DNA of 64,000 bases, taken from positions 124,001-188,000 of the forward strand of contig NZ_WVID01000017.1 in NCBI RefSeq assembly GCF_010091925.1, read 5' to 3'. The position numbers and the translations under genes were made by a program. The notes under the pieces were generated by a model that was not told the origin of the DNA, searched no databases, and saw only the letters and a program-made list of their open reading frames with translations. Below are positions 2,356 to 12,704 of this stretch, in pieces. How positions within the stretch are numbered: position 1 is the first letter of the stretch; the number at the start of each line of letters is the position of its first letter. The DNA is from Nostoc sp. B(2019). Its GTDB lineage: Bacteria > Cyanobacteriota > Cyanobacteriia > Cyanobacteriales > Nostocaceae.

Positions 2356-3693
2356 ATGGAAAACTGGCAAGCGTTCCTAAGTGTTATTACATTTTTAGGC
2401 GTAATTATCTTAGTCATGACGGAATGGGTGCATCTCACAATTGCTGCTTTATTGGGAGCATTGTTACTAGTTTTTACCAACGTCATGACTTTAGAAGAAG
2501 CTGTCGGTTACATCGGTAATAGTCATGGAACACTGGGTTTATTCTTCGGAGTTATGGTACTGGTACGAGCATTTGAGCCTACCAAAATATTCGATTATTT
2601 AGCCACTCAAATAGTGCTATTGGCTAAAGGCCAAGGTAAGCGTCTACTACTCGGTATTGTGGGTATGGTTACTCCCATTTGTGCAGTTTTACCAAATGCC
2701 ACAACGGTAATGTTGTTAGCACCTTTAATTCCGCCGATGGCGGAGGAACTTGGAATAAATTTTGTACCATTACTGATTTTAATGGTATTTGTTGCTAACA
2801 GTGCTGGACTACTGACATTAGTTGGTGATCCGGCTACCTTTATTGTTGGCGATGCTGTAAATATCAGCTTTACAGATTATTTATTTAAATTGAGTTTGGG
2901 GGGAGTCATTGCCGTTGCTGTCGTGATAGCAACACTACCATTTTTATTTCGCAAAATTTGGAATACACAACTAGATAATCTTGAACATCTGCCACATCCG
3001 CAAATCAATCACCCGCGAGTTTTAAGTGTGGGGGCAGTTATTGTAGCTTTCGTCTTAATATTTTTTGTCATAGGAGAATCTCTACCAATTCCTATTTCAC
3101 CTGCTGCTGTAGCTTTGTTAGGAGCAGCTTTAGCTTTACTATTGTCTCACCATAGCAAAATAGATTCAGTAAATAATATATTGCGGGATGTAGACTGGAG
3201 CACGTTAATCTTTTTCATGAGTATCTTTGTGCTAATTGGGGGACTAGAGAAGACTGGCATAATTAACGGTTTATCAGGAGTATTAGCAGCAATATTGGGA
3301 AAAAATATTGTATTAGGTTCGCTGGTTTTATTATTTGTTGTGGGCATATTATCTAGCTTGATTCCTAATATCCCTTTGGTAGTGGCGATGGTACCCTTAC
3401 TCAAACAGTACATTGTCAACGTCGGTTTAGCACCCCCAGAGGTTTTAGCACAAGACTTTCAAGGACAGTTTCCCCCAGAAGTCTTACCACTGTTTTACGC
3501 GATGATGTTTGGTGCAACTTTAGGAGGCAATGGCACACTAGTAGGTGCGTCATCTAACATCGTAGCCGCCGGGATTTCTGAGCAGCATGGACGCCGTATC
3601 TCGTTTAAAACTTTTCTACACTACGGCATCCCAGTAATGGTACTGCAACTTGTGGTTTCAGCATTGTATGTGTTAGTTCGTTTTTTGCTTTAG
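2356..3693 (+). CDS. ArsB/NhaD-type ion transporter (SLC13-like permease)
   Basis: A 445-residue integral membrane protein with about eleven hydrophobic segments along its whole length. It has the hallmarks of the ArsB/NhaD/CitM superfamily: PICAVLPNATTVMLLAPLIP in the first half, ANSAGLLTLVGDPATFIVG (the conserved re-entrant asparagine/GDP region), and the second-half counterpart GATLGGNGTLVGASSNIVAAG. NhaD members exchange Na+ for H+, ArsB members export arsenite; sequence alone does not decide. AGAGG lies about 8 bases before the ATG. The c-di-AMP riboswitch candidate and UspA gene upstream favour a role in ion homeostasis. Confidence 0.85.
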   Translation: MENWQAFLSVITFLGVIILVMTEWVHLTIAALLGALLLVFTNVMTLEEAVGYIGNSHGTLGLFFGVMVLVRAFEPTKIFDYLATQIVLLAKGQGKRLLLGIVGMVTPICAVLPNATTVMLLAPLIPPMAEELGINFVPLLILMVFVANSAGLLTLVGDPATFIVGDAVNISFTDYLFKLSLGGVIAVAVVIATLPFLFRKIWNTQLDNLEHLPHPQINHPRVLSVGAVIVAFVLIFFVIGESLPIPISPAAVALLGAALALLLSHHSKIDSVNNILRDVDWSTLIFFMSIFVLIGGLEKTGIINGLSGVLAAILGKNIVLGSLVLLFVVGILSSLIPNIPLVVAMVPLLKQYIVNVGLAPPEVLAQDFQGQFPPEVLPLFYAMMFGATLGGNGTLVGASSNIVAAGISEQHGRRISFKTFLHYGIPVMVLQLVVSALYVLVRFLL

Positions 3694-4067: not shown

Positions 4068-4664
4068 ATGAATCCACCAGAAGAATATCTCAATAATAAT
4101 AATTCCCAGGAATCGGCTCCAGATATAAATAAATTTAATTATAGTAATTCCAATGTTAATGCAATTAACAGTTTAGATAAAGTTAGAGATATTTTAGTTG
4201 GCAACCAAATGCGGGAGGTTGAAAAGAAATTTACCCGCCTAGAAGAACGTCTGGTTCAAGAATCTGCTAATGTGCGTGATGAGACGAAAAAACGTTTAGA
4301 TGTCTTGGAAAGTTATATCAAAAAAGAGGTTGAGTCTTTAACAGAGCAGCTCAGAAGTGAGCAATTAGAACGTGATGCAATTGTGAAAACACTAGCTGAA
4401 GAACAGAGAAACATCACCTCATCTTTAGAAACAAAAGTTGCTCAATTCAATGAACAAACTACCAATAGCCAACGAGAACTTCGAGAGCAGATTCTCAACC
4501 AATCTAAAAATCTCCAAGATGATATTCGACAAAAATACGAAGAAATCTTAGTTTTATTGGAACGGGAAGCCAAAGAACTACGCAGAGATAAAACTGACCG
4601 TTATCACCTGGCAGCTTTATTCTCAGAACTAGCCATCCGGTTGAATTCTGATACCAAGTCTTGA
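4068..4664 (+). CDS. Coiled-coil protein of unknown function
   Basis: 198 residues, no signal peptide or membrane segment, so probably cytoplasmic. An Asn/Ser-rich N-terminus (1-40) is followed by nearly continuous coiled coil (about 45-180) rich in Glu, Arg, Lys and Gln, with heptad-like Leu/Val spacing, and a short C-terminal segment LAALFSELAIRLNSDTK. It is the first gene of a same-strand block with an OmpA-domain membrane protein, a Rab-like GTPase and a histidine kinase. No enzymatic motif. A scaffold or GTPase effector role is only a guess. Confidence 0.75.
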   Translation: MNPPEEYLNNNNSQESAPDINKFNYSNSNVNAINSLDKVRDILVGNQMREVEKKFTRLEERLVQESANVRDETKKRLDVLESYIKKEVESLTEQLRSEQLERDAIVKTLAEEQRNITSSLETKVAQFNEQTTNSQRELREQILNQSKNLQDDIRQKYEEILVLLEREAKELRRDKTDRYHLAALFSELAIRLNSDTKS

Positions 4665-4996
4665 GTCTTAAAGGATGTTTAAAAATTATTATTAACATCC
4701 AGCAATGCAAATTTTTAATTATTAAATGTAGTAGTTTTTGTAACCTTATTATACTTAAAGTAAGGTTAGCGATCGCTCCTTCGGAAAACTTTACGGTTTA
4801 TTGAGTGTAATAACGTTAACTATTGTACTTGTTTCGTAATTGTATAACTTCAGAATATATGAATGAAGCCCTTGTATAGTAAGGGCTTCGGGTTTTTTAT
4901 ACAATTTTTTTTTGGCACAGTGACCCCAATTAGTGCAAGAAATTAGTAAACCTAAAAATTGCTGTAATATCAATTGTGAATTGAGGAATTTTGGTT
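4665..4996. other. Intergenic region between coiled-coil and OmpA genes
   Basis: AT-rich, one HIP1 site near 4769, and a terminator at 4865-4898. No gene seen. The terminator implies that the OmpA-GTPase part can be transcribed separately from the coiled-coil gene. Confidence 0.5.
4865..4898 (+). terminator. Rho-independent terminator
   Basis: GAAGCCCTT and AAGGGCTTC form a perfect 9 bp stem around GTATAGT, followed by GGG and six T. Confidence 0.8.
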
Positions 4997-6784
4997 ATGA
5001 GTGACAATTCTGAAAATGAAATAGGGAACCAGTCGCCCGGAATTTTGCGGGAAAATAGCCAATCCTTAGACTCATATCTGAATAAAAATGAACTGAGTGA
5101 ACTTCGCAGTTTGCTACTTGGTGTTGAGCCGACTCAGCTGCAAAAACTCTATGAACGATTAGAAAACCCTCAAATTGAACCAGAAGATATTAGCCGTCTA
5201 CTTCCAGAAGCCGTTATCCTGCGGTCAAAGCAAGATAAACTACTGAGCGAAGCAATAGTCTCAACTTTGGAAGAAGCTATTCAAGCTTCTGTTAAACAAG
5301 ACCACAATGTACTTTCCCAGGCGTTTTTTCCCATCATCGGGCCAGCAGCCCGCAAGGCGATTTCTGCATCTCTAGACGAAATGATTCAGGGATTGAATCA
5401 AACGTTGGAACATAGTTTGTCACCACAAAGCTTAAAATGGAGACTAGAAGCACGCCGGACAGGAAAATCGTTTGTAGAAATTGTGCTGCTTCGTACTTTA
5501 GTTTACCGAGTCGAACAAGTATTTTTGATTCATAAAAAAACCGGATTATTGCTACAACATCTCGTAGCAGCTAAGGTAGGTACTCAAGACCCGGTTTTGA
5601 TTTCAGCCATGTTAACGGCTATCCAAGATTTTGTTCAAGACTCTTTCAGGGTGCAAAAAGACGATGTACTCCAAAGTTTGCAGTTTGGAGAACTCACCAT
5701 TTGGATTGAAGAAGGGCCGCAAGCTCTACTTGCAAGTCTTATCCGCGGAAAACCACCTCAAGAATTAAGGTTAGTTTTTCAAGATGCAATAGAAAAAATA
5801 CACCTGAAGTTGAGTCAAGAAATTAATGATTTTGAAGGTGAAACACAGCCATTTGAGGCGAGCAAGACTTATTTAGAAGCCTGTTTGGCAGCTAAGTATA
5901 AAAATCCGCATAAAAAGAATTATACTTACGCATGGGCTTTCTTGGGTGCAACTGCGATCGCTTCTAGTATTTGGGGCTTTTTTGCCATTAGAGAACAATT
6001 TCGCTGGTACGCCTATATCGAAAAACTCAACTCTCAGCCAGGAATTGTCGTGATTAACACCAAGCAGATAACTGGAAAACATTTTATTTTTGGAATGCGT
6101 GATCCTTTAGCAGTAGATCCCAATACACTAATACAACAAACAAATCTCGACCCCAAAAAAATTATCAGTCAATGGAAACCTTACCTATCTTTGGAGCCAC
6201 AATTTACCACTAAAAGAGTTGAGGAATTGCTCCAGCCTCCAAAAACCGTATCATTACACGTTGACAACAGCGGTACTCTTCAAGTCACTGGTTTTGCACC
6301 TCGCCGATGGATTTTGGAAGCACGGAAATTATGGCATTTTATTCCTGGTATTATTCAATTTCAAGAAAAAAACTTTGTAGAGATCGAACTCAAGCAACTG
6401 GAGTTATATAAAAAGCAAATTGAACAAGAAAAACTATTTTTTTTTGAAGGAAGTACAGAGTTGATTCCAAGTGAAACTGATAAGCTAAATAATTTGGTAC
6501 TAGTACTACAAAAACTATTGAATATCGTCAATTATCTAGGTAAGGATGTCGATATTCAAATAATAGGACATACCAACCCAACTGGTACAGAGCAAAAAAA
6601 TATGCTCCTTAGTCAATCTCGTGCCAACAAAATTTTATCTTATTTAAATTCCCAAAGAATCAATACAAGCAAATTTAGAGCTATAGGCGTCAGTTCAAGT
6701 CTGTCTTTATCATTGACAGCAGAGGCTCAAAAAGTTGATCGCAGAGTATCTTTTAAAGTACTTGTTACTAATAAACTTAACTGA
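4997..6784 (+). CDS. Membrane-anchored OmpA-domain protein with roadblock-like cytoplasmic region
   Basis: About 595 residues; ATG at 4997 with GAGG ten bases upstream (a TTG at 4991 is also open). Domains read from sequence: a helical N-terminus (1-150), a segment around 165-270 beginning VEQVFLIHKKTGLLLQH and including ISAMLTAIQDFVQDSF that resembles Roadblock/longin-type folds, one membrane segment (about 310-330, WAFLGATAIASSIWGFFAI), a periplasmic BON-like region, and a C-terminal OmpA-like peptidoglycan-binding domain (from FFFEGSTELIPSE, with IQIIGHTNPTGTE and SQSRANKILSYL). So it would tether the cytoplasmic face to the cell wall. It is followed after 14 bases by a small GTPase gene. 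Confidence 0.8.
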   Translation: MSDNSENEIGNQSPGILRENSQSLDSYLNKNELSELRSLLLGVEPTQLQKLYERLENPQIEPEDISRLLPEAVILRSKQDKLLSEAIVSTLEEAIQASVKQDHNVLSQAFFPIIGPAARKAISASLDEMIQGLNQTLEHSLSPQSLKWRLEARRTGKSFVEIVLLRTLVYRVEQVFLIHKKTGLLLQHLVAAKVGTQDPVLISAMLTAIQDFVQDSFRVQKDDVLQSLQFGELTIWIEEGPQALLASLIRGKPPQELRLVFQDAIEKIHLKLSQEINDFEGETQPFEASKTYLEACLAAKYKNPHKKNYTYAWAFLGATAIASSIWGFFAIREQFRWYAYIEKLNSQPGIVVINTKQITGKHFIFGMRDPLAVDPNTLIQQTNLDPKKIISQWKPYLSLEPQFTTKRVEELLQPPKTVSLHVDNSGTLQVTGFAPRRWILEARKLWHFIPGIIQFQEKNFVEIELKQLELYKKQIEQEKLFFFEGSTELIPSETDKLNNLVLVLQKLLNIVNYLGKDVDIQIIGHTNPTGTEQKNMLLSQSRANKILSYLNSQRINTSKFRAIGVSSSLSLSLTAEAQKVDRRVSFKVLVTNKLN

Positions 6785-6798
6785 AGCAGTATCAATTT

Positions 6799-7299
6799 AT
6801 GCTCCAGAAAAAAATATGTATGGTAGGTGCATTTGCCACAGGTAAAACGAGTTTGGTGGCGCGATTTGTTAATAGTATTTTCTCAGAAAGTTACCATACT
6901 ACCTTGGGGGTTAAAATTGATAAGAAGATAATAAATTTTAAGGAAAAAACATTAAATATTATACTTTGGGATCTCTATGGAGAAGATGAATTTCAAAAGG
7001 TACGGATGTCTTACTTACGGGGTTCATCTGGTTATTTATTAGTAGTTGATGGAACCAGACATTCTACTCTAGAAAAAGCTTTAAATCTGCAAACAAGAGT
7101 AGAAGATACAATTGGACAAGTTCCCTTTATTTTAGTACTGAATAAATGGGATATGACAGATGAATGGGATATTGATACTGTTGAAATTAACGCTATACAA
7201 CAGAAAGGTTGGACGGTAATTAAAACTAGTGCTAAAAATGGTCTAGGTGTAGAAGAAGTTTTCCAAACTCTCGCTCAGAAAATCTTGGATAGATGCTAG
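6799..7299 (+). CDS. Rab/Ras-like small GTPase
   Basis: 166 residues, a complete small G domain of Rab-like size. G1 GAFATGKTS (10-18), G2 threonines in HTTLGV (33-38), G3 WDLYGED (57-63), G4 NKWD (115-118), G5 TSAKNG (143-148). The residue matching Ras Gln61 is Glu (GED instead of GQE), so intrinsic hydrolysis may differ. The protein ends in Cys (ILDRC). It starts 14 bases after the OmpA-domain gene and is almost certainly co-transcribed with it. Bacterial Rab-like GTPases often act in polarity or envelope processes (MglA is the best known case). The partner here is unknown. Confidence 0.85.
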   Translation: MLQKKICMVGAFATGKTSLVARFVNSIFSESYHTTLGVKIDKKIINFKEKTLNIILWDLYGEDEFQKVRMSYLRGSSGYLLVVDGTRHSTLEKALNLQTRVEDTIGQVPFILVLNKWDMTDEWDIDTVEINAIQQKGWTVIKTSAKNGLGVEEVFQTLAQKILDRC

Positions 7300-7418
7300 C
7301 TAAATGGTGGTGCTACCGTGATTGTTTATCTAAAGATTTTAGTCTGTTGGTATAAAAATCAAAATATTAAACTAGCAAACAAAAGCCAAGATTAATTTAT
7401 TGCGGCACTTTCAAATCC

Positions 7419-8528
7419 ATGAATGACTCTATTACAGCAGATCTTTTTGCAGCCTTAAATATTTTGGTATTAGAACGACTTAACGTAAATTTATTTAGAA
7501 TTAATGGAACTGTACCAAATTGGTTGGCTCATTCTTGTGAGCAAAACTTTACAACAGGAATGGAGATATTAATACCACAAGAAGGTTTTCATTTTATGGA
7601 AAACTTTTTGATTGATGCTGAAGAATTTTGGCAGAGCGATCGCAAAAATAAACTAAGTTCAGGTATATGGATTGACATAGACTTAACGGGAAAAGAATGT
7701 CACTTTGAAGCTTCTGCAATTTGCGTCAATAATCAAAAAATTCTCTTAATTGAATTGCTCAATGAGACATATCAAGAAAAACTATATATTATCCAAAAAG
7801 CTAGAGAAAATCAATTAAATTACCAACAATGGCTCAAAGATAATCAGAAAAAAGAAGTATTAATCCATTGTATTATTCATGATATGGCAGGGCAGCTAAG
7901 TAGTATAAATTGCTGTTTAGCTCTGTTAGAATTTGAAAATTTGACAGATCAAGGAAAAGAACGTTTAGAAATTGGCATAAAGCAATCAATTAAGCAACAA
8001 ATGCTGATTAGAGACATTCTAAACGCATTCTCAGCAGATGTTCAATCTCTAGAAGCTTTCACACGCAATATTGCTCAAGCACCAGATATATTAGTTTCTG
8101 TACAAGAAGTTATTGAGCTTTTAAAGCCTATTTGTGTAGTTAATAATATACAATTAAAACTTGTTAATAATCTTGGCATACAAGCAGACTGGAAAGTAAT
8201 TGGTGATCAATCACGGTTGAATAGAGTAATTTCTAATCTTTTAGAAAATGCTTTACGCTACAGTCCACCAGAGTCTACTATAACAATTAGCTTACAACAA
8301 GATGAAGAATATATTCTCGTAACTATAGATGATGAAGGTGCTGGTGTACAGCCAGAGATGGTAGAAACTTTATTTGAAAAGTTTTCTCAAGGAAAAACTA
8401 AACCAGGTAAATCTGGACTTGGACTTTATTTTTGCCGTATTACAGTTGAGCGTTGGGGAGGAGTAATTGGTTATTTACCCCTTCCCAAAGGTGGCTCACG
8501 ATTTTGGTTAAGCTTACCAAAACCATGA
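7419..8528 (+). CDS. Sensor histidine kinase
   Basis: 369 residues without evident membrane segments, so probably cytoplasmic. The N-terminal 140 residues look like a degenerate PAS-type domain. The H-box is IIHDMAGQLSS with phospho-acceptor His154; then the ATPase domain with N-box NLLENALRYSP, G1 DDEGAG, F-box FEKFSQG and G2 GKSGLGLYFCR. All catalytic motifs are intact. No response regulator lies beside it, so it is an orphan kinase. It sits 119 bases after the GTPase gene on the same strand, and may sense or report on the GTPase/OmpA assembly. That link is inferred from position only. Confidence 0.85.
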   Translation: MNDSITADLFAALNILVLERLNVNLFRINGTVPNWLAHSCEQNFTTGMEILIPQEGFHFMENFLIDAEEFWQSDRKNKLSSGIWIDIDLTGKECHFEASAICVNNQKILLIELLNETYQEKLYIIQKARENQLNYQQWLKDNQKKEVLIHCIIHDMAGQLSSINCCLALLEFENLTDQGKERLEIGIKQSIKQQMLIRDILNAFSADVQSLEAFTRNIAQAPDILVSVQEVIELLKPICVVNNIQLKLVNNLGIQADWKVIGDQSRLNRVISNLLENALRYSPPESTITISLQQDEEYILVTIDDEGAGVQPEMVETLFEKFSQGKTKPGKSGLGLYFCRITVERWGGVIGYLPLPKGGSRFWLSLPKP

Positions 8529-8613: not shown

Positions 8614-8826
8614 TTAGTATCTAATGATGTGCAATACATCACGCAGAACACTATAGCCAGCTAAATCCCAAAGTAAATAGGCAAGAAAGCCAATTGCTGC
8701 TAAGCGACCATTCCATAGTTCGGCTTGAGGATTCCAGCCAAATAGAAAGGCATTGCGATCTACACCGTTATAAGCTTTAGCAACAGGTGGTAAATCGGTA
8801 GCAGGACGAGTTTCTCTAGTTTCCAT
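8614..8826 (-). CDS. High-light-inducible chlorophyll-binding protein (Hlip)
   Basis: 70 residues: a short soluble N-terminus, then one membrane helix with the Lhc-type chlorophyll-binding motif in AELWNGRLAAIGFLAYLLWD (Glu and Asn/Arg ligand positions, about 36-55), then DLAGYSVLRDV. Hlips bind chlorophyll and carotenoid in thylakoids and protect against excess light, often at photosystem II assembly intermediates. The start has AAGGA about 8 bases upstream. It lies 45 bases downstream of a close paralogue on the same strand, so the two are a tandem duplication and probably one transcript. Confidence 0.9.
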   Translation of the reverse strand: METRETRPATDLPPVAKAYNGVDRNAFLFGWNPQAELWNGRLAAIGFLAYLLWDLAGYSVLRDVLHIIRY

Positions 8827-8871: not shown

Positions 8872-9075
8872 TTAGTAGCCAATCAGGTGTAAAACGTCGC
8901 GGAGAACGCTATAACCAGCTAAATCCCAAAGTAAATATGCAAGAAAACCAATCATCGCAAAACGGCCATTCCATAGTTCAGCTTGAGGAGTCCAACCAAA
9001 TAGAAAAGCATTGCGATCGCTGCCATTATATTCTGTTGCAATTGTTGGCAAATCAGTGGAGGAGCGAGTTTCCAT
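8872..9075 (-). CDS. High-light-inducible chlorophyll-binding protein (Hlip), tandem paralogue
   Basis: 67 residues, about 80 percent identical by eye to the next gene (shared DRNAFLFGW, AELWNGR, FLAYLLWDLAGYSVLRDVLH). The chlorophyll-binding helix is intact; the main difference is a shorter N-terminus. First gene of the pair. An HLR1-type element lies about 160 bases upstream (9235-9252), which supports control by the high-light regulator RpaB. An AGGA lies upstream of the ATG. Confidence 0.9.
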   Translation of the reverse strand: METRSSTDLPTIATEYNGSDRNAFLFGWTPQAELWNGRFAMIGFLAYLLWDLAGYSVLRDVLHLIGY

Positions 9076-9581: not shown

Positions 9582-12500
9582 ATGTTTCAAAGTGCGGAAA
9601 TCATGTTGGGACTCTGCAAGCCACTATTTTGGATAGCGCAGATCCCAGCAGATAGCTCAAGCTTCACGCCAGCACAGGCATCAGTTCTCACTTCGGGGCC
9701 ACGCTTTTTTGTGGCTTTAATCTCCGGTGTGATTCTGGCCTTCGCTTTCCAATTGGTTTTAACAAACCTTTCTGTTGCGGCTGGTATTTCCTACCTGGGT
9801 CGTCCATCTACTTCGGATTCAGGTAGTGAGGAAGTTGGAAGTTTGGGGGGCACGATTCGCAAAATTGGCACAGCAGTGGGGATTTGGACATTAGTCACTG
9901 TGACGATCGCCTCATTAATCGCTTCTTTCCTCGCAGTAAAACTCAGCCTCCTGGTTTTAGATCCGGGACTGGGAGCGATTCTAGGGTTAGTGATTTGGGC
10001 TGCATACTTTTTACTACTGATGTTGGCAAGTTCCACTGCTGTGGGTTCTGTAGTCGGCTCAGTGGTCAATACAGCAACTTCCGGTTTTCAGGCGATTATG
10101 GGGACAGCTACCGCTGCACTGGGCGCAAAAGCTGTCAATAATCAAGTAGTGGCAACGGCCGAAGCCGCCGCCGCTGCTGTGCGTCGGGAACTAGGGAGCG
10201 CAATCGACCCCACAAGCATCCGAGATAACATTGAAGATTACTTAGATAGGCTGCGTCCCCCAGAGCTAGATTTGTCCAAAATTCGGGGTGACTTTGAAAA
10301 TTTACTCAACGATCCGCAACTAAAAGCGATCGCCGGAACTTCAGACATCCGTAATATTGACCGTCAGAAGTTTGCCGAGTTAGTCAGCAGTCGCACCGAC
10401 CTTTCCAAACGAGATGTTAACCGCATAACCGATACGTTATATAAAGTTTGGCAGCAGGTGGTAAGTCAGCAACAACCTACCCAAGACCGGATGGGTGAGT
10501 TAATAGACTATCTCAAGTCACTCCCACCAGGCCAAAGCAAAACAGATGAACTCAACGCCAAGCTGGAACGGTTAATTGCCGAAACGCGTGGCTCTAAAGA
10601 AGCTGAGCAAAAGGCAACCACAGGGCCCATCCAACAAACACTCCAGCAAGGTTTGACCGCCTTAACTGGCATTGTCATGGGACGCACTGATTTGTCAGAT
10701 TTGGATGTGGAAAAAATCTTGCGATCGCTCACCACAGCCAAAGACAAAGTTACCCAACAAGCAGATAAGCTAGGATTACCCACACCATCACAACCTTATA
10801 GCCCAATTCGGGCCGATGTAGAAAACTACCTGCACAACACTTATGCTTGGCAGTTGAGTCAGGAAAAAATTGCTCAAGAATTTCGTGATGTCATTTACGA
10901 CCCAGCAGCCGATCCTGGCACAGTCCGAAGGGAATTAGAACGACTTTCTCGCAACGATTTTGCTAATATCCTGCAACAGCGAGGACTGCTTACCCAAGCC
11001 CAAATTCAGCGCATTGCAGATCAACTCGAAGCTGTCCGCCAAGAAGTGCTAGTGACAGTTACCGCCGTTGAAGAAAGAGAGATAGTACAAGACTTGCAAC
11101 GCAAAGTCGAAAGTTATCTGCTTGTTACCCCGAAAGCAGATTTGACGACCCCTGAAAGCATACAGCGGGATTTTGCACCATTATTAGCAGACCCAGACGC
11201 AGATTATGAAACCTTGGTGCTGCGACTGGCGCAAATTGAACGTCAAGAAATGCGGGAAATATTGCTGCAACGTAATGATATTGATGTCTATGAAGTAGAG
11301 AGGATTGTCGATGAGTTAGAAAGACAGCGCGATCGCGTCTTGGTAGAATCCAAAGGACTAGCAGATCAGGCAAAATATCAAGCAGAAACCCTCTGGTTGA
11401 ATGTAGAGTCATATCTGCGTAACACTGGTAAAGGAGAATTAAACCCTGATGCTATCCGCGCCGACCTGAAAAGGCTGTTGGAAGATCCTCAAGCGGGAAT
11501 TGCTGCAATTCAAGCGCGGTTGTCTCGCTTTGACCGCGATACTTTGGTGCAGTTATTAAATCAACGGCAAGATTTGAGCGAAGACCAAATTAATCAAATC
11601 ATTAATGATGTTGAGCATTCATGGCATAGTGTCCGTCATGCACCTCAAGCTGTAATGGATAAAGCTAAGGAGCAATATGACTCTGTCACCACCACACTTG
11701 CAGATTACCTGCGGAATACTGGCAAAACAGAACTGAACCCCGAAGGTATTCAGCGGGACTTGTCTAGATTGTTTGAAAACCCCAAAGAAGGAGCCGTAGC
11801 GCTGCGTCGTCGGTTGTCGCAAGTAGACCGTGATACTTTAGTGAAGTTGCTGAGTCAGCGTCAAGACTTGAGTGAACAGCAAGTCAATGAAGTTATTGAT
11901 TCCTTGCAAACGTCGATTAGCAACTTTGTGCGTGCGCCTCGTCGCCTAGCGACCCGCACACAGCAAAGAGTGCAAAATTTCCAAACATATCTGCAAGAGT
12001 ACCTGCGGCAGACTGGTAAAGAAGAACTCAACCCAGAAGGCATCAAACGCGACTTGCAATTACTGTTGCACGATCCGCGAGTCGGAGTGGAAAGTTTTAG
12101 CGATCGCCTTTCCCATTTTGACCGTGAGACAATTATCGCCCTGCTGAAAATTCGGGAAGATATGTCTGATGAAGAAGCGGCGCGGATTGCCGATAACATT
12201 GTCTCGGTGCGCGATCAATTTGTTGAACAAGTGCGGAGTATCCAACGAGGCATTCAAGATGCAATTGATGGAGTTTTTGCCCGCATTCGTAACTATCTCA
12301 ACTCCCTGGATCGTCCAGAACTCAACTATGACGGTATCAAGCGCGATGTTCGCACAGTTTTTGAAGATCCCCAAGCCGGATTTGATGCTCTGCGCGATCG
12401 CCTGTCTTCTTTCGACCGTGATACTCTAGTGGCGCTCATGAGTTCTCGTGAGGACATCTCTGAGGAAGATGCCAACCGGATCATCGACCAAATTGAACGA

Positions 12501-12704
12501 GCACGCAACACAGTTTTACAACGTGCAGAACGCCTACAACACGAAGCCCAACGCCGCCTAGAAGAGGTGAAGCATCAAGCACAGCGGCAAGCTGAGGAAA
12601 CCCGCAAAGCAGCAGCTACAGCGGCTTGGTGGCTATTTGCTACAGCAATTGTCTCAGCTACTTTCTCTGCATTAGGAGGAGCGATCGCTGTAGTTTGGGT
12701 GTAG
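9582..12704 (+). CDS. Large membrane protein with eight tandem helical repeats
   Basis: 1040 residues; ATG after AGGAAGG. N-terminal part (1-200) has three hydrophobic segments (about 40-65, 95-125, 130-160). Residues about 205-980 are about eight diverged repeats of 75-110 residues. Repeats 5-8 are clearest: YLRxTGKxELNPxGIxRDL, then LLxDPxxG, RLSxFDRDTLVxLLxxRxDLSE, and a closing helix. The C-terminus is charged coiled coil (about 985-1010) and a final hydrophobic segment (WWLFATAIVSATFSALGGAIAVVWV). Thus both ends are membrane-anchored and the repeats form a long loop or rod. No function recognised; a scaffold is a guess. A terminator follows directly. Confidence 0.85.
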   Translation: MFQSAEIMLGLCKPLFWIAQIPADSSSFTPAQASVLTSGPRFFVALISGVILAFAFQLVLTNLSVAAGISYLGRPSTSDSGSEEVGSLGGTIRKIGTAVGIWTLVTVTIASLIASFLAVKLSLLVLDPGLGAILGLVIWAAYFLLLMLASSTAVGSVVGSVVNTATSGFQAIMGTATAALGAKAVNNQVVATAEAAAAAVRRELGSAIDPTSIRDNIEDYLDRLRPPELDLSKIRGDFENLLNDPQLKAIAGTSDIRNIDRQKFAELVSSRTDLSKRDVNRITDTLYKVWQQVVSQQQPTQDRMGELIDYLKSLPPGQSKTDELNAKLERLIAETRGSKEAEQKATTGPIQQTLQQGLTALTGIVMGRTDLSDLDVEKILRSLTTAKDKVTQQADKLGLPTPSQPYSPIRADVENYLHNTYAWQLSQEKIAQEFRDVIYDPAADPGTVRRELERLSRNDFANILQQRGLLTQAQIQRIADQLEAVRQEVLVTVTAVEEREIVQDLQRKVESYLLVTPKADLTTPESIQRDFAPLLADPDADYETLVLRLAQIERQEMREILLQRNDIDVYEVERIVDELERQRDRVLVESKGLADQAKYQAETLWLNVESYLRNTGKGELNPDAIRADLKRLLEDPQAGIAAIQARLSRFDRDTLVQLLNQRQDLSEDQINQIINDVEHSWHSVRHAPQAVMDKAKEQYDSVTTTLADYLRNTGKTELNPEGIQRDLSRLFENPKEGAVALRRRLSQVDRDTLVKLLSQRQDLSEQQVNEVIDSLQTSISNFVRAPRRLATRTQQRVQNFQTYLQEYLRQTGKEELNPEGIKRDLQLLLHDPRVGVESFSDRLSHFDRETIIALLKIREDMSDEEAARIADNIVSVRDQFVEQVRSIQRGIQDAIDGVFARIRNYLNSLDRPELNYDGIKRDVRTVFEDPQAGFDALRDRLSSFDRDTLVALMSSREDISEEDANRIIDQIERARNTVLQRAERLQHEAQRRLEEVKHQAQRQAEETRKAAATAAWWLFATAIVSATFSALGGAIAVVWV

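Follow-up and report, generated by a model that had tools for sequence, protein, structure and literature searches.

A Group 1 Rup-type GTPase block in Nostoc, predicted to act as a wall-anchored switch with interchangeable outputs

Introduction

The Rup GTPase family was defined in 2014 by Wuichet and Sogaard-Andersen (PMC4316618). In that paper, Group 1 Rup genes are described as having three kinds of neighbour. One encodes a coiled-coil protein; the second encodes an unknown domain, to which a transmembrane (TM) helix and an OmpA domain are often joined; and the third is an output module, usually GGDEF/EAL or a histidine kinase (HK), with an invariant glutamine in its N-terminal region. The GTPases themselves are without the glutamine of the G3 motif, and the output glutamine was proposed to complete the GTPase in trans. 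Here we describe a block of this type at positions 4068-8528 of a 64,000-nucleotide (nt) stretch of Nostoc sp. B(2019) (contig NZ_WVID01000017.1, 124,001-188,000), referred to throughout as the window. The block is probably a wall-anchored GTPase switch that gates interchangeable outputs, the output in the window being a kinase.

According to the same source, Cyanobacteria are among the hosts of Group 1 Rup and one Nostoc punctiforme member has been reported as transcribed; Rab, Ran, Ras and Rho are very similar to the group, no member of which was characterised as of 2014 (PMC4316618). A second, later paper repeats that Rup is the group closest to Rab/Rho/Ras/Ran (PMC4915359). No later functional study of Group 1 Rup was found in the literature searched, from which subscription papers are mostly absent. 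New in the present analysis are linkage counts, a fifth component that we name PASs, and a wider range of outputs (cyclases, SpoIIE, HD, sigma-54 activator).

Results

A Group 1 Rup-type block on one strand

Four open reading frames (ORFs), all on the + strand, make up the block, as the first-pass annotation of this DNA had stated; the ORF list and the domain matches also confirm its complete GTPase, 14 bases behind the OmpA gene. The parts are listed here; HKN is a name coined in this analysis, and the named loci are defined below.

4068..4664, + strand: coiled-coil-like cytoplasmic protein, 198 amino acids (aa), first gene of the block (ORF; profile relatives in 69 of 80 named loci)
4864..4890, + strand: terminator-like hairpin with a T-run, between the coiled-coil and OmpA genes (fold z -2.8; 1 of 200 shuffles equal)
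4997..6784, + strand: OmpA-domain membrane tether, 595 aa (ORF, Pfam, hydropathy; relatives in 74 of 80 named loci)
6799..7299, + strand: Group 1 Rup-type Ras/Rab-like GTPase, 166 aa (PF00071, G motifs, PMC4316618)
7419..7870, + strand: kinase N-terminal domain HKN (alignment; Gln126 in YIIQKARENQL)
7872..8528, + strand: soluble histidine kinase core with H, N, G1 and G2 boxes (ORF, Pfam, alignment)

The coiled-coil call is based on composition (42% D/E/K/R/Q) and not on a coiled-coil program. The gap of 332 bp between this gene and the OmpA gene contains the hairpin at 4864-4890, so that the coiled-coil gene may have its own transcript and a single transcript for all four genes is not assured; the stretch that was scanned contained five terminator-like sites, against 3.8 expected. 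The OmpA ORF was called from TTG 4991, and ATG 4997, which lies behind GAGG and gives the 595-aa protein, is the most likely start. The kinase starts 119 bp beyond the GTPase.

The tether carries its OmpA domain at the C-terminal end (PF00691, E 2e-9, Pfam). Its predicted layout is a conserved cytoplasmic domain at about residues 60-330, followed by a TM helix, a periplasmic stretch and the OmpA domain. The best TM candidate (about residues 313-331) is moderately hydrophobic, with a Kyte-Doolittle value of 1.57 and a runner-up of 1.39 at 160. Because a lysine-rich stretch precedes this candidate, a topology with a single TM helix, the N terminus inside and the OmpA domain outside fits the protein.

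The GTPase consists of a single Ras domain (PF00071, E 2.8e-32), is shorter than 240 aa and has G1-G5 all present; its best solved relatives are Rab-23 chains (4e-24). The G3 motif reads D-L-Y-G-E, with Glu62 where the catalytic glutamine is expected. Five weaker Ras-domain matches lie elsewhere in the window's genome (contigs C38, C13, C43, C24 and C21), in frames of 463-1048 aa that may be Roco-like or other multidomain GTPases. The kinase, of 369 aa, matches HATPase_c at E 5.7e-26 and keeps what we take to be the H, N, G1 and G2 boxes.

A single-domain GTPase of less than 240 aa without the G3 glutamine, coiled-coil and TM/OmpA neighbours, and an HK with an N-terminal glutamine are the features described for Group 1 Rup. 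On these features, rather than on a tree with published Rup sequences, we assign the block to the Group 1 Rup GTPase systems. The first-pass remark that no description was known is thus mistaken, such blocks being described in PMC4316618.

The same annotation had drawn a parallel to MglA and its roadblock partners. By analogy (a Ras-like GTPase, a membrane link, filamentous relatives) the block could be an MglA-like module for polarity or motility in a filamentous cyanobacterium, which we regard as very unlikely. Robl_LC7 (roadblock/MglB) gave 0 matches in the window's genome, with the control search positive in 3 of 14; no motility gene was seen among the scanned neighbours; the block occurs in records of many phyla, and a close GTPase is present in just 96 of the 217 genomes of the window's family. 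In Table 1 of the 2014 paper, 0 of 121 Rup sequences are coupled to MglB (PMC4316618). A roadblock/longin-like fold of the cytoplasmic domain of the tether had been suspected from its strand pattern and was rejected as not significant (hhalign). Against 14 roadblock matches, two of which fell below the curated cut-off, the domain was co-linear at E 0.1 with a score of 14.7, which five of 60 shuffles exceeded, the highest reaching 21.2. The parallel finds no support in these comparisons.

Conserved linkage of the block across several bacterial phyla

A phylum sample of 146 genomes contained 22 that matched the OmpA protein, with 27 matches, some via the OmpA domain alone. Twenty of the 27 neighbourhoods were examined; the window, four OmpA-domain-only matches, G066 and one short G116 contig were omitted. 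The GTPase adjoins the tether in 17 of the 20, and two types can be distinguished: a compact type like the window (3 neighbourhoods, L034-L036) and a large type with a tether of 724-1203 aa (17, with the GTPase in 14). A BON domain was matched in large-type tether relatives and not in the window tether (Pfam). Genome G101 carries both a compact (L034) and a large-type (L047) Rup block. The tethers of L048 and L049, about 1200 aa long and without an adjacent GTPase, possibly act alone or with another GTPase.

A second set was obtained by scanning species genomes with the GTPase alignment, and the best 80 of at least 575 confirmed relatives form the named loci. By record title, 41 are Nostocales and 39 are other cyanobacteria and further groups, with the non-cyanobacterial labels Acidobacteria/Blastocatellia, Desulfobacterales, Desulfomonile, Nitrospirales, Myxococcales, proteobacteria, SAR324, Spirochaetes, Verrucomicrobia, Rhodothermaceae and others; some labels of metagenome-assembled genomes (MAGs) are doubtful. 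The Klebsiella pneumoniae MAG label of L098 is probably wrong; this locus clusters weakly with loci from Acidobacteria and with one that carries the label Proteobacteria.

The block profiles were iterated and built from these same loci, with E-values from a small ORF set. With them, the order coiled coil, tether, GTPase, kinase domain was found in 41/41 named Nostocales loci. In 24 of the other 39, all four parts were recovered as ORFs, with an output domain of any type as the fourth; of the remaining 15, several are cut by contig ends, and in L121, L125, L127 and L132 the GTPase ORF was lost to the overlap filter and found by tblastn. Over all 80 loci the coiled coil was counted in 69, the tether in 74, and a PASs or HKN N-domain in 79 (76 as an ORF and three by tblastn). 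The linkage of the block thus extends over several bacterial phyla, and conservation of the four genes in other genomes, a check set beforehand by the first-pass annotation, was borne out both here and in the family counts.

Within the window's family, the 96 genomes with a close GTPase have one copy each at E 1e-30, and HKN was found in 92 of 208 genomes, all 92 of which also have the GTPase. Re-checking four discordant genomes brought HKN to 94 of the 96 GTPase genomes, in 91 of them within 2 kb; these counts ignore the relatedness of the genomes. In G330, G334 and G338 the GTPase and the HKN kinase lie far apart, both without stops, and since the kinase is kept after its separation from the GTPase, a working pair can be argued. 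The separated core and kinase loci are L135/L136 (G334), L137/L138 (G338) and L139/L140 (G330); a 364-aa ORF that matches no block profile follows the core in L137 and L139. Joint decay was seen in G323 (L141), where the GTPase is split or broken and the kinase domain is absent. The G175 block is cut by contig ends. By the linkage counts, the four genes belong together far beyond chance.

The arrangement could still reflect inherited synteny of four neighbours without a common function. Three flanking genes also adjoin the block in named Nostocales loci:

1572-2240: USP-domain protein (Pfam; flanks the block in 19/41)
2356-3693: CitMHS/ArsB-type transporter (Pfam; 15/41)
9582-12704: 1040-aa protein with no Pfam match over the cut-off (18/41)

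However, these flanks were found in 0/39 of the other named loci (phmmer 1e-20, some contigs being short), where the block persists, and the separated kinases of the family genomes were still found only together with the GTPase. Synteny alone is strongly disfavoured and hardly credible as an account of the block. The same 0/39 count led us to reject the three flanking genes as extra members. Directly downstream of the block, on the - strand, lies a tandem pair of 70 and 67 aa (8614-8826 and 8872-9075) that resembles high-light-inducible (Hlip) chlorophyll-binding proteins. A defence system was considered and rejected: Zorya matched only the OmpA/MotB-type and coiled-coil proteins, other matches were weak, and the block has no MotA-like protein. 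The three block proteins compared with PHROG families gave no match.

PASs, HKN and exchangeable output enzymes

PASs, for which a PAS-like fold is a guess only, is a domain of about 133 aa that starts right behind the GTPase in 33 of the 41 named Nostocales loci. In 7 of the 39 non-Nostocales named loci it is fused ahead of HKN and the kinase, and PASs therefore belongs to the output side. Two stand-alone PASs proteins had no Pfam match. Loci without PASs are L054-L056 (the nearest relatives), Desmonostoc vinosum, four labelled Fischerella or Pelatocladus, and the window. No remnant was found by tblastn in the window, and a single-sequence search run without a positive control found no copy elsewhere in the window's genome. 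The window holds a reduced form without PASs. The first-pass annotation had missed this fifth component, as well as the interchangeable outputs described below.

PASs matches the N-domain of seven large-type cyanobacterial outputs (E 9e-7, probability 91%). Profile comparison gave no support for HKN and PASs as one domain family (E 0.014, probability 3%), although their terminal glutamine motifs are similar. No convincing solved relative was found for the profiles of the tether domain, HKN or PASs, and no second HKN protein was found in the window's genome. HKN may serve to dock the GTPase.

To survey the outputs, 30 output-side proteins with PASs or HKN were scanned; others, for example those of L096-L098 and L129, were judged by the kinase profile alone. 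Among the 30, the output ends are histidine kinases, some with receivers and Hpt; class III cyclases (L095, L104, L120, L124); SpoIIE phosphatases (L104, L110, L121, L127, L131); GGDEF or GGDEF-EAL (L101, L103, L116); HD_5/HD domains, HD-GYP-like (L114, L123); and a sigma-54 activator (AAA; L115). The PASs proteins of L101 and L103 had no match, and that of L107 matches PAS only. On a core tree of GTPase and tether with 55 rows (42 labelled), in which 27 of the 52 inner branches are weak, the type of output linked to HKN changes at least six times among five states, the minimum possible being four. The output enzyme has been swapped behind the N-domains while the core stays.

This exchange behind a constant core is our main reason for placing the enzyme downstream. 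In the opposite direction, as proposed for conservons, the kinase or other enzyme would sense and act on the GTPase as the real output. The 2014 paper proposes such a flow for conservons, also without a response regulator, and likens Group 1 Rup to them (PMC4316618); in addition, a Pfam scan found no receiver domain in the kinase or in seven neighbouring window proteins. However, the enzymes that replace the kinase are second-messenger enzymes, a phosphatase and a transcription activator, all effector-like, and some of the kinases carry their own receivers. We judge the reverse flow unlikely.

Glutamine in the GTPase and in the output

Counts of residues were made over distinct rows, which exclude repeats (L034/L067 and L035/L091 are identical DNA). 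At the G3 glutamine position, glutamate is present in 77 of 82 compact GTPases and glutamine in none. At the position of HKN Gln126, our alignment has glutamine in 71 of the 72 distinct domains that carry a residue at this site; the corresponding PASs glutamine is found in 56 of 58 domains, with an adjacent second glutamine in 55 of 58, and the large-type output N-domains have it in 7/7. The 2014 idea of a glutamine supplied in trans fits the compact type. The output protein could then be a GTPase-activating protein (GAP) whose N-domain glutamine supplies the residue missing in G3, so that binding of the output ends the signal, a reading along the lines of the 2014 proposal.

Other observations speak against it. 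Four of 14 large-type GTPases have the G3 glutamine, and in one of these loci (L052) the output N-domain keeps its glutamine too, so the two residues are not strictly complementary. The stretch that joins the N-domain to the enzyme is helix-like, and the N-domain glutamine, which lies in it, may have a structural role; in addition, glutamate at the G3 position raises intrinsic hydrolysis in Ras. The GAP reading is therefore a doubtful possibility, albeit one to be kept in mind. At what we take to be P-loop position 12 by Ras numbering, phenylalanine is present in 79 of the 82 distinct compact GTPases, one further row being a gap; beside this residue a Ras-type arginine finger would be hard to accommodate. 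In L097 a second GTPase-matching ORF (9627) lies directly behind the first (9001).

Discussion

In the most likely model, the OmpA-domain protein would be fixed in the inner membrane, where its C terminus would lie towards the peptidoglycan and its large cytoplasmic domain would face inward. The latter domain, with the coiled coil as a scaffold, would place the GTPase and control it by the state of the envelope. Depending on its nucleotide, the GTPase would bind the N-terminal domain of the output and thereby switch it, and the histidine kinase of the window might pass its phosphate to an unlinked response regulator. We infer all of these contacts, the direction from core to output, the envelope as signal and the response. 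The first-pass suggestion of a GTPase switch tied to the wall with a kinase readout comes close to the 2014 proposal (PMC4316618); a role in polarity, motility or filament position gains no support.

Several observations weigh against the proposed switch. The aspartate of the OmpA domain that would bind peptidoglycan, presumably through diaminopimelate, is asparagine in the window, and among 93 distinct rows the position holds aspartate in 48 and asparagine in 25. Tether-type proteins lack an adjoining GTPase in 3 of the 17 large-type loci (L038, L048, L049), and no tether was detected in the GTPase-output loci L120, L121 and L123 despite several kb of upstream sequence. L071 and L072 each have the kinase divided between two ORFs, and L126 has a short GTPase and a short tether. 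Within the family, the core of G091 has no kinase domain and keeps the stand-alone PASs alone; the GTPase of G336 has a stop while its kinase domain is clean; and in G290 (L144) the GTPase is clean, PASs is short and the kinase N-domain is broken. Moreover, the named loci were chosen by GTPase similarity and are related, so that their counts are not independent events.

A broader proposal has, in our estimate, about an even chance: that Group 1 Rup is a general bacterial GTPase-effector platform, a counterpart of Ras/Rab, with a wall-tethered core, two docking domains (PASs and HKN) and plug-in enzymes, of which the window would hold a reduced form. The linkage points to a dedicated effector domain and to an operon in culturable Nostocales. 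The block may be a case of a bacterial Ras-like GTPase that controls a histidine kinase from a wall-anchored receptor, perhaps with the effector supplying the missing glutamine.

Compared with known systems, the GTPase resembles eukaryotic Rab in its G1-G5 motifs and has Rab-23 as its closest solved chain, whereas most compact GTPases have phenylalanine at P-loop position 12 and glutamate for the G3 glutamine. MglA/MglB of Myxococcus xanthus likewise links a bacterial Ras-like GTPase to two-component proteins, but MglA belongs to another GTPase family in the 2014 scheme, and the window's genome is without a roadblock match. The conservons of Actinobacteria (CvnA-D) also join a histidine kinase, a small Ras-like GTPase and an unknown protein in an operon; in contrast, their GTPase is of the MglA family and is accompanied by a protein of MglB type, and the available part of PMC4316618 lists no OmpA tether for them. 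The closest likeness is to Group 1 Rup as described in 2014, with the same four parts, the missing G3 glutamine and an output N-terminal region with an invariant glutamine. The difference is that the accessible text names one output gene (PMC4316618), whereas here two N-domains, PASs and HKN, and further output enzymes are found.

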